Assembly (NCBI GenBank): GCA_031177765.1
Contig: JAPSKH010000004.1
Coordinates: 26,477 to 90,476, forward strand
Length of the DNA stretch: 64,000 bases
Direction of reading: 5' to 3'
Source of the DNA: Microbacterium sp.
Lineage (GTDB): Bacteria > Actinomycetota > Actinomycetes > Actinomycetales > Microbacteriaceae
The notes below the pieces were generated by a model. The model saw only the letters and a program-made list of their open reading frames with translations. It ran no database searches and was not told where the DNA came from. Below are positions 24,503 through 30,071 of the stretch, piece after piece. Numbering within the stretch: position 1 is the stretch's first letter; the number at the start of each line of letters is the position of its first letter. A program made the position numbers and the translations under genes.

Positions 24503-25231
24503 ATGACCAGCCCCGCGCCCGCACTCTCCCGCCCCGACGGCTCGGCTCTCCGCGTCCTCGTCGTCGACGACGAGCAGATGCTGACCGACCTGCTTTCGAT
24601 GGCTCTGCGGATGGAGGGCTGGGACGTGCGCACCGCCGGCTCCGGATTCGAGGCGCTGCAGGCTGCGCGGGAGTTCGGCCCCGACGCCATGGTGCTCGAC
24701 ATCATGATGCCCGACCTCGACGGCATGGCGGTGCTCCAGCGCCTGCGGCAGTCCGGCGACGACGTGCCGGTGCTGTTCCTCACCGCGAAGGATGCCGTCG
24801 GCGACCGCGTGGCGGGCCTGACAGCCGGCGGCGACGACTACGTGACGAAGCCCTTCAGCCTCGAGGAGGTGGTCGCCCGCCTCCGCGGCCTCATGCGACG
24901 CGCCGGGACGGCGCACGCCGCCGGCGCGGAGCCGATCCTGCGCGTGGGCGACCTCTCGCTCAACGAGGACAGCCACGAGGTGGAGCGGGGCGGCGAGGAG
25001 ATCGAGCTGACGGCCACGGAGTTCGAGCTGCTGCGCTACCTGATGCGCAATCAGCGTCGCGTCGTGTCGAAGGCGCAGATCCTCGACCGGGTCTGGAACT
25101 ACGACTTCGGTGGACGATCGAGCGTCGTCGAGCTGTACATCTCGTACCTCCGGAAGAAGATCGACGCGGGGCGGGAGCCCCTGATCCACACCGTCCGCGG
25201 CGTCGGCTACATGATCAAGGCACCGCAGTGA
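24503..25231 (+). CDS. OmpR/PhoB-family response regulator
   Basis: A 242-residue two-component regulator. The receiver domain has Asp22/Asp23 (VVDDEQ), the phospho-acceptor Asp66 (MVLDIMMPDLDG), a FLTAKD threonine and a DDYVTKPF lysine. The C-terminal winged helix (about 150-240) has the usual LTATEFELLRYL start and TVRGVGYMIK end. Its stop overlaps the kinase GTG by 4 bases. It probably controls its own operon and the divergent ABC exporter through the CATAG repeats between them. The signal is unknown. Confidence 0.95.
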   Translation: MTSPAPALSRPDGSALRVLVVDDEQMLTDLLSMALRMEGWDVRTAGSGFEALQAAREFGPDAMVLDIMMPDLDGMAVLQRLRQSGDDVPVLFLTAKDAVGDRVAGLTAGGDDYVTKPFSLEEVVARLRGLMRRAGTAHAAGAEPILRVGDLSLNEDSHEVERGGEEIELTATEFELLRYLMRNQRRVVSKAQILDRVWNYDFGGRSSVVELYISYLRKKIDAGREPLIHTVRGVGYMIKAPQ

Positions 25232-26763
25232 CACCCGAGGACGCGCCGCAGGCGCCCGCCCCGGATGCTACGGCGCGCGCGGATGCCGCGGGCGACGCAT
25301 CCGCCGGCCCGCCGTGGACGCTGCAGCGCCGGCTGATCGTCACCGTCGTGTCGATCACCTCGCTCATCCTCGTCCTGGTCGCCGTCACCACCAATGCGAT
25401 CCTCGCCGGCGTGCTCGAGCAGCAGCTCGCCGAGCGGGTGCACACGTCGGCGCTCTCCTCGGTGTGGATGCGCCCGCTCATCACGCAGGGGTTCACCGCG
25501 GAGGAGATCCTCCAGCAGCGGCCCCAGCAGGCCGGGTTCCTGCTGGCCGTCGAGACGCCGCCGAGCCTTCCGACGGCGGCGGTCACGGACTCCTCCGCCG
25601 ACGTCGTCGCGCTGACCGACGCGCAGATCCGCGAGATCACGCGCAGCCTCGAGGATCAGCAGGGGCCGCTGGTCGTGTCGATCGACGGTGTGGGCACCTA
25701 CGGCGTCGAGGGGGTCCGCATCGGGAACTCCGTCGCCATCGTGGGGATCTCCCGGGCAGAGGTCGCGCACACGACGGGGCAGATGCTGACGACCATCGGG
25801 CTGCTCACGGCGGGCGGGCTGGTCCTCCTCGCCACAGCGACGGCGTGGACGATCCGCGCGGGGCTCGCGCCGCTGCGGGCGGTCGCCGACACCGCCGAGC
25901 GGGTCTCGAGGATGCCGCTGTCGCAGGGCGAGGTGTCGATCCCCGAACGCGTCCCCGCCCACCAGGCCGACCCGCGCACGGAAGTCGGGCGGGTCGGCGA
26001 GGCGCTCAACACCCTTCTCGACCACGTCGGGGACTCCCTGACGGCGCGGCAGCGCAACGAGGAGCGCATGCGTGCGTTCGTCGCGGATGCCAGCCACGAG
26101 CTGCGCACTCCGCTGGCGTCGATCCGCGGCTACTCGGAGCTGTCGCTGCGCGCGCTCACGCGCGGCCACGACACGGCGACCGTGGAGACGGCGGAGTCGT
26201 CCCTCGAGCGCATCCAGGCGCAGTCGCTGCGGATGACGTCCCTCGTCGAAGACCTGCTGCTGCTGGCACGGCTGGACGAGGGGCAGGAGCTCGTCTTCGG
26301 CACCGTCGACCTCACCCGCCTCGCGATCGACGCGGTCGGCGATGCGCGCGCGGCCGGCCCCGACCACGCGTGGGTGCTCGACGTCGACGAGGAGCCTGTG
26401 CTCATCGCCGGAGATGCGGGCCGTCTCCATCAGGTCGCCGGCAACCTGCTCGCCAACGCCCGTGCCCACACCCCCGCCGGCACCACGGTGACCGTCAGCG
26501 TGACGCGCGAGGGCGGCAGCGCCGTCCTGCGCGTGCACGACGACGGCCCGGGCATCGACCCGGGCATCAAGGACGAGCTGTTCGAGCGCTTCGCGCGCGC
26601 CGACCGGTCACGGGCCCGGCAGACCGGCGGCACGGGCCTCGGCCTGTCGATCGCGCGCGCGATCGTCCAGGCCCACGGGGGCACCATCACTGTCGACAGC
26701 GCCCCCGGCGACACCACGTTCGAGGTCCGTCTTCCCGCCCGTCCCCTCGACCCGGCGGTCTGA
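25228..26763 (+). CDS. Sensor histidine kinase, HAMP type
   Basis: A 511-residue membrane kinase partner of the response regulator. A Pro/Ala-rich cytoplasmic start precedes TM1 (about 32-55); an extracellular sensor region of about 130 residues follows, then TM2 (about 185-207), a HAMP domain, the HisKA phospho-acceptor in DASHELRTPLASIRGYSEL (His near 290), and the HATPase boxes NLLANARAHT (N), DDGPGI (G1) and TGGTGLGLSIA (G2). The GTG start overlaps the regulator stop, so the two proteins are made together. A large hairpin follows its stop. Confidence 0.95.
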   Translation: MTPEDAPQAPAPDATARADAAGDASAGPPWTLQRRLIVTVVSITSLILVLVAVTTNAILAGVLEQQLAERVHTSALSSVWMRPLITQGFTAEEILQQRPQQAGFLLAVETPPSLPTAAVTDSSADVVALTDAQIREITRSLEDQQGPLVVSIDGVGTYGVEGVRIGNSVAIVGISRAEVAHTTGQMLTTIGLLTAGGLVLLATATAWTIRAGLAPLRAVADTAERVSRMPLSQGEVSIPERVPAHQADPRTEVGRVGEALNTLLDHVGDSLTARQRNEERMRAFVADASHELRTPLASIRGYSELSLRALTRGHDTATVETAESSLERIQAQSLRMTSLVEDLLLLARLDEGQELVFGTVDLTRLAIDAVGDARAAGPDHAWVLDVDEEPVLIAGDAGRLHQVAGNLLANARAHTPAGTTVTVSVTREGGSAVLRVHDDGPGIDPGIKDELFERFARADRSRARQTGGTGLGLSIARAIVQAHGGTITVDSAPGDTTFEVRLPARPLDPAV

Positions 26764-26778: not shown

Positions 26779-26850
26779 CGCGAGACAGCACTGGGGCGCC
26801 GAGACGGCAGTCGCACGACTGCGGTCTCGGCGCCCGGATGCTGTCTCGCG
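26779..26850. terminator. 72-nt compound hairpin between convergent operons (REP-like)
   Basis: Three nested stems: CGCGAGACAGC with GCTGTCTCGCG (11 bp), GGGCGCCGAGA with TCTCGGCGCCC (11 bp), and GCAGTCG with CGACTGC (7 bp), separated by small internal loops. It lies between the histidine kinase and the convergent membrane oxidoreductase gene and can end transcription both ways, but it is larger and more regular than an ordinary terminator. Confidence 0.7.
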
Positions 26851-26898: not shown

Positions 26899-28464
26899 TC
26901 AGTAGCCGCTGAAGGCGTCGGTCGTGATCGACCGGGCGCGCTCGAGCGCGGGCGCCAGAGCGGCGATGAGGCCGGCGGGACCGGAGATGTAGGCGTGACG
27001 CGACGAGATGTCGGGCACGACGCGCAGCAGGCCCTCGGCGTCCAGGCGCACGCCGCGCGCCCACTGCCAGTGCGGGGGCAGGTCCGCCGGCTCGTCCCGC
27101 GTGAACACGATGACGCGCGCCCCGGATGCCTCGATCTCGTCACGGTACGCCAGCTCCGAGGCATCCGACGCGACGTAGATCAGGACGACGTCGCGCTCCT
27201 GGCCGGTCAGGCGCATATGGCGCAGCTGCGACACGAACGGGGTCACGCCGATGCCGGCCGCCACCATGAGCACCGGCGCGGTGGACCGGGTGGGGAGCAG
27301 GAAGTCCCCCCACACTCCCGTGGTCGCGAGCCTCCCGCCCTCGGGCACCGCCGCGAGTGCGCGCTTGTAGGAGCTCTGCGGCTTGCTGCTGCCTCCCTCC
27401 TTGAAGGCGACCTTCAGCTGCGGCAGGTCCTCCGGCGCCGAGGCGATGCTGAACTCCCGGCGCGTGCCCCGCGCGTCGGGATGGCGGTGCGGCACCTCGA
27501 GCTCGAGATACTGCCCGGGCCGGAACGCCAGTCGGTCGTGCACGTGGAAGGTGATCTCACGCACCGTCGGTGTCGGCGCGCGGCGAGAGGTCAGCGTGAG
27601 GCGCACGGCGGTGCGCACGGCGAACGCGAAGGCGACGAGGTTGCCGATGAGCAGGGCGCGCTCCTGTCCGAGGGTGATCTCCCCGACGGGGATCGGCCAG
27701 CCGGCCAGGACGCCGACGACGGCGGCGACCGTGAGCTGCTGCCACCGGCGCGGCGGCAGAGTGAGAGGCTCGGACAGCATGAACGCCCCGAGGAACAGGA
27801 AGGGCGATGACCACAGCACCGGCCACAGGATCTCGAACCCGGTGATCTGGATGCCGGCGGCCTGATACTGCGACGCCGTCCGCACGAACGCGACGCCGAC
27901 CGCCACCACGACGAACACGGCCGCCACGCGCAGCTTCTCGGTCCGCATCAGCACCGCGATCCCCAGTACCAGCACGGGGCCGGCCAGTTCGGGCGTGCCC
28001 ACCCACCACGCCGACGCGCCCAGCTCCGGCCACGCCAGGCTCAGCAGCGTCAGCACCGTCGCCCCGACGGCCGCCGGGTTGAAGATGTGGCGGCCCCGCC
28101 ATGCCAGCACGTACTTCGACAGCGATGCCACGGCTGCGGCGAGGACGATGCCCGCGAGCCCGGCGGGCACCAGCGTGGGCCGCAGGACGAACAGCAGGAT
28201 GTGCGCGGTGATGAGCGAGGACTCGATGCGCCACGGAAGTCCGAGAAGCCGCTGGGCGGCGGCGTCCACGCCGACGCACACGGCGCTGAGCACCGCGAGG
28301 GTCGCCAGCAGCTCCAGCGGTCCCGGCGCGACGCGCCCCAGCAGCGACAGGACGAACGCGATGACGGCGAGCGCGGCAAGGGCGAGGTAGACCAGGCGGT
28401 ACATCGAGACGCGGCCGAGCACCGCGAAGACGCGGTTCCAGACGGCCGTCAGTGTTCCGGTCAC
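26899..28464 (-). CDS. RnfD/NqrB-like membrane domain fused to FAD/NAD(P) ferredoxin-reductase-like module
   Basis: A 521-residue predicted transmembrane NAD(P)H oxidoreductase. Residues about 15-290 form ten or so helices of the NQR2/RnfD/RnfE type (GRHIFNPAAVGATVL, FLFLGAFMLSEP). Residues about 295-515 are a ferredoxin-reductase fold: RPGQYLELEVP and RREFSIASAP for FAD, AAGIGVTPFVSQL for NAD(P)H, and a C-terminal YISGPAGLIAAL; there is no 2Fe-2S domain. It probably moves electrons from cytoplasmic NAD(P)H through membrane flavin to the extracellular FMN lipoprotein encoded upstream. Its GTG overlaps the stop of the mini-MOSC ORF by 4 bases. Confidence 0.88.
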   Translation of the reverse strand: MTGTLTAVWNRVFAVLGRVSMYRLVYLALAALAVIAFVLSLLGRVAPGPLELLATLAVLSAVCVGVDAAAQRLLGLPWRIESSLITAHILLFVLRPTLVPAGLAGIVLAAAVASLSKYVLAWRGRHIFNPAAVGATVLTLLSLAWPELGASAWWVGTPELAGPVLVLGIAVLMRTEKLRVAAVFVVVAVGVAFVRTASQYQAAGIQITGFEILWPVLWSSPFLFLGAFMLSEPLTLPPRRWQQLTVAAVVGVLAGWPIPVGEITLGQERALLIGNLVAFAFAVRTAVRLTLTSRRAPTPTVREITFHVHDRLAFRPGQYLELEVPHRHPDARGTRREFSIASAPEDLPQLKVAFKEGGSSKPQSSYKRALAAVPEGGRLATTGVWGDFLLPTRSTAPVLMVAAGIGVTPFVSQLRHMRLTGQERDVVLIYVASDASELAYRDEIEASGARVIVFTRDEPADLPPHWQWARGVRLDAEGLLRVVPDISSRHAYISGPAGLIAALAPALERARSITTDAFSGY

Positions 28465-28610
28465 CTCGCACCGCCCGCAGCGGCTCGTGACTGCCCGTCG
28501 CCTTCGACGCCGCAGCCGGCGATCAACGTGACGCTCTCGCGCGTGGGCTTGCTGAAGCGGTGCCCGTCGTCGCGGGCGACGGCGAGGACTTCTCCCGGGG
28601 AGTCGGTCAC
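28461..28610 (-). CDS. 49-residue MOSC-domain fragment, coupled on both sides
   Basis: The short ORF reads GEVLAVARDDGHRFSKPTRE and continues to ITL-like VTLIAGCGVEGDGQS, which is the N-terminal strand and signature of MOSC (molybdenum-cofactor sulfurase C-terminal) domain proteins. Complete MOSC domains are about 130 residues or more; this one stops after a degenerate SRAAAGGAR tail. It starts with GTG overlapping the apbE stop by 4 bases (GTGA) and ends with TGA overlapping the next start by 4 bases (GTGA again). It is either a trimmed relic kept for translational coupling or a functional mini-protein. It cannot have normal MOSC catalysis. Confidence 0.7.
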   Translation of the reverse strand: MTDSPGEVLAVARDDGHRFSKPTRESVTLIAGCGVEGDGQSRAAAGGAR

Positions 28611-29521
28611 GATCCCACGGTATCGGGTCGGACGAACAGCTCGGCGCGGCATCCGGGCGACCATTCCACGCGTCCGTCGGTGGTCATCCGCACCCATTCC
28701 ACGCGGCGATGGAAGGCCAGGGCCGGTCCGCCGTCGAAGAAGAGCGCGGTGGCGATCGCGTCGGCCGTCATCGCGTCCTCGGCGACCGCCCACGTCGCGG
28801 CGATCGTCCGCACCGGCATGCCCGTGCGGGCGTCGAGCACGTGGTGCAGTCCCTCGGCGCCGGTCGCCGACGGCCACGCGCGCCGGTTCGTCGCCGACGC
28901 GCACAGCGCGGCATCGGTGACCTCCCACACGCCGATCGCCCGGCGACGGTCGAACGGGTGCTCGAGGCCGATGCGCTGGGTGCCGCGGACGGCGATGTCG
29001 CCGCCCGCGTCGACGACGGCGTCACCGGGCATCGCGGCGGCCACGACCGCCATGACCCGGTCGACGAGCCGGCCCTTGCCGATCGCGCCGACGTCGATCG
29101 AGGCGGGCTGCGCGAGCGTGAGCGAGCCGCCCTGCCATGAGAGGACATCCCGCCACCGCTCGGGCGCAGGCCGCGGCCCGCGATCCCGCAGCGAGTACGT
29201 CGCGTCGTATCCCAGGGCCTCGAGGGATGCCCCGACGAGCGGGTTCACGGCGCCGCCGGTCGCCTCCGACAGCTCCGCGTACGCGTCGAGCATCGGGCCG
29301 GCATCCGGCGGCGCGGGAACGTGCCCGCCGCGCGCGGCGAGCGCGCTCACCGTCGAGTCGGGCCGGAAGCGCGACCAGTCCCGGTCGAACGCCGCGATGG
29401 TCCCCGTGACGGCATCGCGGACCGGCAAGGGAAGAGCGTCGCTCGTGACGATCTCCCACGCCGTGCCGATGGCCTCGAACGCCCACGCGTGCGGCGTCGG
29501 ACCGTCGGAGGCGCCCATCAT
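28607..29521 (-). CDS. apbE: FAD:protein FMN transferase ApbE
   Basis: Transfers FMN from FAD to a Ser/Thr of target flavoproteins. The 304-residue protein has the family core: PASIDVGAIGKGRLVDRV, VVDAGGDIAVRG, the HHVLDARTGMPV segment and metal-site residues in EDAMTADAIATALF. No signal peptide or lipobox is visible at the N-terminus (MMGASDGPTPHAWAFE), unlike many ApbE proteins that act outside the membrane, so it may work in the cytoplasm. Its ATG directly follows the TAG stop of the FMN-binding lipoprotein gene, its obvious target. Confidence 0.93.
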   Translation of the reverse strand: MMGASDGPTPHAWAFEAIGTAWEIVTSDALPLPVRDAVTGTIAAFDRDWSRFRPDSTVSALAARGGHVPAPPDAGPMLDAYAELSEATGGAVNPLVGASLEALGYDATYSLRDRGPRPAPERWRDVLSWQGGSLTLAQPASIDVGAIGKGRLVDRVMAVVAAAMPGDAVVDAGGDIAVRGTQRIGLEHPFDRRRAIGVWEVTDAALCASATNRRAWPSATGAEGLHHVLDARTGMPVRTIAATWAVAEDAMTADAIATALFFDGGPALAFHRRVEWVRMTTDGRVEWSPGCRAELFVRPDTVGS

Positions 29522-30001
29522 CTACGCGGCGGCTTCGGCCTTGATGGCCTCGATCGCGTCGTTGAAGCCGCCGCTGGTCAGGGACGACCCCGCGACACGG
29601 CTGACCTGGATCTCATCGATGTCCTGACCGACCACGACGTCGGCGATGCCGCCGATGAACTGTCCCTGATACTGCTCGGACTCGCGCTTCTGCGGATCGC
29701 CGGTCACCTGCACGTCCGTGATGACGTCGCCCTCGAGCGTCACGGTGACGCTGATCGTCTCCACGCTCTCGGGCGTGGCGTACGACCCCTCGGCCGTGTA
29801 CGTGCCGTCGGCGTACGCCGCGGAGCCGCTCGCACCGGACGTCGACCCGTTCGAGGACGAGCTGTCGGAGCCGGGTCCGGTCCCCTCCTCGGAGGCGTCC
29901 GGAGCGGCAGGCGCGCAGCCGGCCAGCAGCGCGATCCCCGCTGCGGCGGCGAGGGTGGCGCCGGTCCGGACGGGGCGGGCGACGAGGGCGGTGCGGGTCA
30001 C
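29522..30001 (-). CDS. FMN-binding domain lipoprotein
   Basis: A 159-residue exported lipoprotein with a C-terminal FMN_bind domain (as in NqrC/RnfG and PplA). The signal peptide ends in a LLAGC lipobox with lipid-anchor Cys29; a Ser/Gly-rich linker (about 35-65) leads to the domain. The flavin-attachment motif, usually SGATxTS, reads AGSSLTS, so the acceptor would be Ser140 rather than Thr. The start is GTG 30001 behind GGAGG; the ORF track begins 14 codons early. First gene of the flavin operon, it is probably flavinylated by the adjacent ApbE and reduced by the membrane oxidoreductase. Confidence 0.88.
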   Translation of the reverse strand: MTRTALVARPVRTGATLAAAAGIALLAGCAPAAPDASEEGTGPGSDSSSSNGSTSGASGSAAYADGTYTAEGSYATPESVETISVTVTLEGDVITDVQVTGDPQKRESEQYQGQFIGGIADVVVGQDIDEIQVSRVAGSSLTSGGFNDAIEAIKAEAAA

Positions 30002-30071
30002 GTGAACCTCCAGGCTCGAGCAGCGCGTGCGTGCACGAGGCATCCTCGCAGCGGCGCCTATGAAACACCTC

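Follow-up and report, generated by a model that had tools for sequence, protein, structure and literature searches.

Three described systems come closest to the short open reading frame (ORF) considered here. First, MOSC proteins (PF03473; 184 aa in the actinobacterial form) share with it the first ~38 codons, from the N-terminus to the GVEGD motif, as well as the genomic place, whereas ~135 residues including the NPC cysteine motif are missing from the ORF, which falls below any Pfam threshold. Second, remnants of internal deletions in bacteria (pseudogene stubs in operons) show the same out-of-frame junction, intact flanks and different deletions in sister lineages, but the remnants described below end, in several lineages, at the start of the next gene more often than expected by chance. 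Third, termination-reinitiation pairs can have the same 4-nt overlap of stop and start (GTGA); in Escherichia coli and H. volcanii, measured restart worked over stop-to-start distances of -8 to +10 nt, was strongest at overlaps, was nearly abolished at ~20 nt and depended on no more of the upstream gene than its last 15 nt (PMC10666635). Unlike in those pairs, the upstream partner here is a gene remnant and not a working gene, and its coupling is a proposal. A literature search on MOSC genes associated with apbE, or on remnants serving in coupling, returned nothing on this operon.

Organization of the operon

The window (that is, the whole 64,000-nt stretch of Microbacterium sp. DNA analysed) carries on its minus strand, in this order, a gene for an FMN-binding lipoprotein, apbE, a 49-codon ORF and a 521-aa RnfD/NqrB-FNR fusion gene (FNR below). 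The apbE gene (28607..29521) encodes an FAD:protein FMN transferase (Pfam ApbE PF02424, E 3.9e-40). Upstream of it, the FMN-binding domain lipoprotein gene (29522..30043) matched Pfam FMN_bind just under the cutoff of 22 (20.6 bits, E 6.9e-4), and its synteny is retained in relatives. The fusion gene (26899..28464) joins a membrane NQR2/RnfD-like domain, which scored 24.0 bits against NQR2_RnfD_RnfE (below the cutoff of 27.7), to an FAD/NAD-binding (FNR-type) reductase domain, for which NAD_binding_1 was above cutoff (E 5e-06). The NQR2/RnfD-like and FMN-binding names, taken from weak matches plus gene order, are tentative. Between the fusion gene and a convergent sensor-kinase-like gene (25228-26763, plus strand) lies a very strong hairpin at 26779-26850 (z-score -8, MFE -85 kcal/mol for 131 nt), which is probably a two-way terminator.

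The 49-codon ORF, with the translation VTDSPGEVLAVARDDGHRFSKPTRESVTLIAGCGVEGDGQSRAAAGGAR*, occupies 28461..28610 on the minus strand, from a GTG start at 28610 to a TGA stop at 28463-28461, and the distance from the apbE stop to the FNR start is 142 nt. As the sequence-only reading had pointed out, it is joined to both neighbours by a 4-nt GTGA overlap, one between the apbE stop and its own start (28607..28610) and the other between its own stop and the FNR start (28461..28464). It should be noted that its reading frame is open for 155 codons, reaching 28928 within apbE, because of composition; openness is thus no evidence for a gene here and was rejected as such.

Origin of the short ORF from a MOSC gene

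Over residues 5-41, the 49-aa ORF was 78% identical to the N-termini of full-length MOSC proteins from the genus (tblastn E ~5e-17), a resemblance that, by this alignment, is far beyond chance and, together with the same synteny, indicates shared descent with the MOSC N-terminal segment. The translation of the ORF and this identity are what identify it. On the other hand, a profile search of Pfam and NCBIfam with the 49-aa fragment alone matched no family. An intact relative scored 57 bits against the Pfam MOSC model PF03473 (cutoff 22.7), but only over residues 61-169, so that the fragment lies almost wholly N-terminal of the Pfam-defined domain. Its model score is not above cutoff, and the NPCxQ cysteine motif, found in all 30 intact relatives, is absent from the 49 residues. 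In addition, the last ~9 residues are the MOSC 3' end read in another frame and not MOSC N-terminal sequence. These points correct the earlier description of the ORF as a MOSC-domain fragment.

The source of the fragment could be recognized in relatives. When 149 genomes of the genus were searched with the 49 residues, a full-length MOSC gene was found between apbE and the FNR fusion at 17 loci; named records of a second collection identify the organisms as Microbacterium species, among them M. yannicii, M. ureisolvens and M. hibisci. With further genomes of the genus read upstream of FNR, the intact loci used in the tree described below came to 30, each with a MOSC gene of 182-188 aa at the exact place of the stub and an apbE-to-FNR gap of ~546-614 nt; one further intact locus, G190, was kept outside the tree because apbE was unreadable there. 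The MOSC start overlapped the apbE stop by 4 nt in 26 of the 30, and on the 3' side the MOSC TGA was usually followed by a gap of 1-5 nt before FNR (-1 in two). At one other place (G209:C41:48395-48677, neighbours unread), a MOSC gene matched in two pieces in different frames, as would be expected of a further broken copy or of a sequencing error. Searches of the window's genome, which is 73% complete, with PF03473 and with the fragment revealed no second MOSC gene. In a family-wide search, neither apbE nor FNR stood beside MOSC at any of the 30 best MOSC loci, so the apbE-MOSC-FNR arrangement may be restricted to some members of the genus.

Pairwise alignment to three intact genes (G270, G052 and G019) located the deletion. 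The retained 5' part, codons 1 to ~38 ending in GVEGDG (28496..28610), showed ~85-87% nucleotide identity in its main block; nucleotides 1-115 of the window's interval align to nucleotides 1-118 of the intact G270 interval and then jump to nucleotide 526. About 407 nt (119-525 of the G270 interval) are therefore missing at a junction placed at 28495..28496, with edges uncertain by several nucleotides. What follows (28465..28495) is the retained MOSC 3' end, now in another frame: its tail GGCAGTCACGAGCCGCTGCGGGCGGT has 81% identity to the intact MOSC 3' end of G052, CGAGCCGCTGCGGGCGGTG recurs unchanged in the scar that G297 carries at this place, and CGA now stands where the old TGA stop was (28466-28468). 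A single junction is thus flanked by recognizable parts of both ends of the intact gene, and an intact homolog occupies the same place in relatives (30 loci). On these alignments, an origin of the stub by internal deletion of a MOSC gene of ~184 residues is well supported, and the comparison shows that the deletion removed the catalytic core, including the NPC cysteine motif.

The junction also accounts for both overlaps. Codons 1 to ~38 run out of frame into the final ~30 nt of the gene. In the new frame the first stop is provided by GTGACC, which forms codons 1 and 2 of FNR, so that the frame change places the stub stop on the FNR start. By comparison with intact genes, the 5' overlap was inherited, and the 3' overlap follows from the new frame. 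A decayed relic, it had been argued, would be expected to lose its perfect coupling at one end or the other. As stated, this argument fails, since the 5' overlap is already present in 26 of the 30 intact relatives and the 3' overlap requires only one of three frames, given that GTGACC contains a TGA.

The window's genome consists of 74 contigs, is 73% complete and has no second assembly of the species that we could find, features that would suit a collapsed or chimeric assembly in which the middle of an intact MOSC gene had been dropped. However, such an artefact is highly improbable: both neighbours are complete and keep their usual arrangement, the old stop has also changed (to CGA), and comparable deletions occurred independently in other genomes, several of them in a single contig or a few contigs (G153 and G162, one contig each).

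MOSC remnants in other genomes of the genus

Other truncated versions of the gene, of 13, 13, 27, 29, 51 and 70 aa, were each cut differently and shared no peptide past the inherited MOSC N-terminus. G153 kept MOSC codons 1-35 within a 51-aa ORF, and G162 had codons 1-38 joined in frame to codons 152-184 (70 aa). Shorter forms were found in G068 (about 28 codons plus AV*, 29 aa), in G025 (about 21 codons plus EPLQAV*, 27 aa) and in G297 and G074 (VTDxLALEPLR..*, 13 aa each). Short repeats read by eye near some junctions, for example GGGCG in G162, suggest that such deletions may have arisen via slippage between short direct repeats.

In a tree built from apbE plus the FNR start, in which many branches were weak, G162 was sister to the intact G270 (support 85), G025 was sister to the intact G067 (support 100) and G153 fell within a clade of intact genes (support 94). 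Taking the tree as drawn, at least 11 changes of the 'intact' label are required, or 4 when strongly supported branches alone are counted; such a count cannot by itself separate gains from losses. The nearest rows to the window's genome were G270 (intact) and the stubs G162 and G068, among which the tree does not fix the exact sister.

These data bear directly on the suggestion that the ORF yields a functional mini-protein of 49 aa that acts in flavin electron transfer. The start and stop of the ORF are intact, and its 78% identity to MOSC N-termini persists over 37 residues. However, we consider this suggestion very unlikely and rejected it, as the truncated forms differ in every lineage, ranging from 13 to 70 aa with different ends; the catalytic cysteine region and the greater part of the Pfam domain are absent from the fragment, and no genome of the genus searched other than G000 encodes the same 49-aa form. 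The conservation check by tBLASTn that the sequence-only reading had proposed went against it: the truncated form was not shared, and relatives carried a full-length MOSC gene between the same neighbours, which that reading had itself named as contrary evidence.

Two further kinds of arrangement were observed at this place. In L070 (G355) and L159 (G031), a short leader at the position of the MOSC start runs in frame into FNR and could add 8 or 17 residues to its front. In L079 (G271), L087 (G230), L097, L099, L104 and L148 (G315), the apbE frame runs past the FNR start, with computed overlaps of 16 nt to more than 100 nt, which may reflect either genuine long overlaps or misplaced stops.

Ends of the remnants and possible translational coupling

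In all seven clearly MOSC-derived stubs, representing about six events, the distance between the stop and the FNR start was -4 to +1 nt. When 13 scars of less certain MOSC origin were included, 18 of 20 ended -16 to +4 nt from the FNR start, and the remaining two (G355 and G031, both doubtful) were in-frame fusions to FNR. Random internal deletions simulated in the 30 intact genes ended near the FNR start in ~40% of cases, the rest being FNR fusions (~38-41%) and deep overlaps or early stops (15-20%). Against the simulated ~40%, six events all ending at the FNR start have P ~0.004, a value to be read with the facts that the distance window was chosen after the pattern had been seen, that events were counted by eye and that some of the doubtful scars are not independent of each other. 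When the published limits of -8 to +10 nt were applied instead (PMC10666635), the secure loci remained at 7/7 and the full set gave 16/20.

One explanation is that the stub is neutral deletion debris with no role in FNR translation, FNR being served by a ribosome binding site that lies within the retained MOSC 3' end. The history of the locus explains both overlaps simply, G-rich sequence can be seen by eye upstream of the FNR start in the retained 3' end, and the stub codons may be mildly relaxed, with a mean pN/pS against intact relatives of 0.41 compared with 0.21-0.27 for four intact genes (over a short stretch of 32 stub codons). Debris, however, should end in a random frame, whereas 18 of the 20 scars (7/7 secure ones) end at the FNR start and ~40% would be expected; we therefore regard neutral debris as the less likely account, though one that deserves serious weight.

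We favor, with somewhat better than even confidence, the explanation that the stub is a MOSC remnant in the operon that has probably been kept as a bridge for ribosomes from apbE to FNR. By comparison with relatives, the intact MOSC gene stood third in the operon, after the FMN-binding lipoprotein gene and apbE and before the RnfD/NqrB-FNR gene, and an internal deletion of ~407 nt left a stub with the inherited apbE overlap. Ribosomes that have finished apbE may reinitiate at the stub, read its 49 codons and reinitiate once more at FNR; the stop-to-start distance is -4 nt at both ends, inside the coupling range of -8 to +10 nt (PMC10666635). The stub would thereby span the 142 nt across which translational coupling would be lost without it, and, if FNR needs arriving ribosomes, the double overlap would keep the chain unbroken, while the peptide itself would probably have no function. 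Two observations count against coupling: in many more distant members of the genus, apbE and FNR share a direct 4-nt overlap with no leader between them, and the two doubtful in-frame fusions (G355 and G031) are not stop-and-restart arrangements. Thus, of the earlier proposal that the ORF is a coupling device left by recombination, the origin by deletion is well supported, and the coupling role, which we infer from the ends of the scars, is plausible and statistically favored.

Implications for gene loss in operons

The puzzling short ORF is a case of ordinary gene loss, and the wider interest lies only in the replicated pattern of remnant ends. A more general possibility, which we put forward tentatively and at slightly less than even confidence, is that upon gene loss in an operon, the point at which the remaining frame stops determines which deletions pass selection, so that truncated stubs are maintained as translated bridges that supply the next gene. 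If this is true, the present operon would be a natural example, replicated within one genus, of selection acting on leftover frames. The locus also cautions that tight 4-nt overlaps do not prove that a peptide is functional. A set of deletion scars replicated within a single genus could serve as a natural test of how strongly coupling limits which operon deletions survive.
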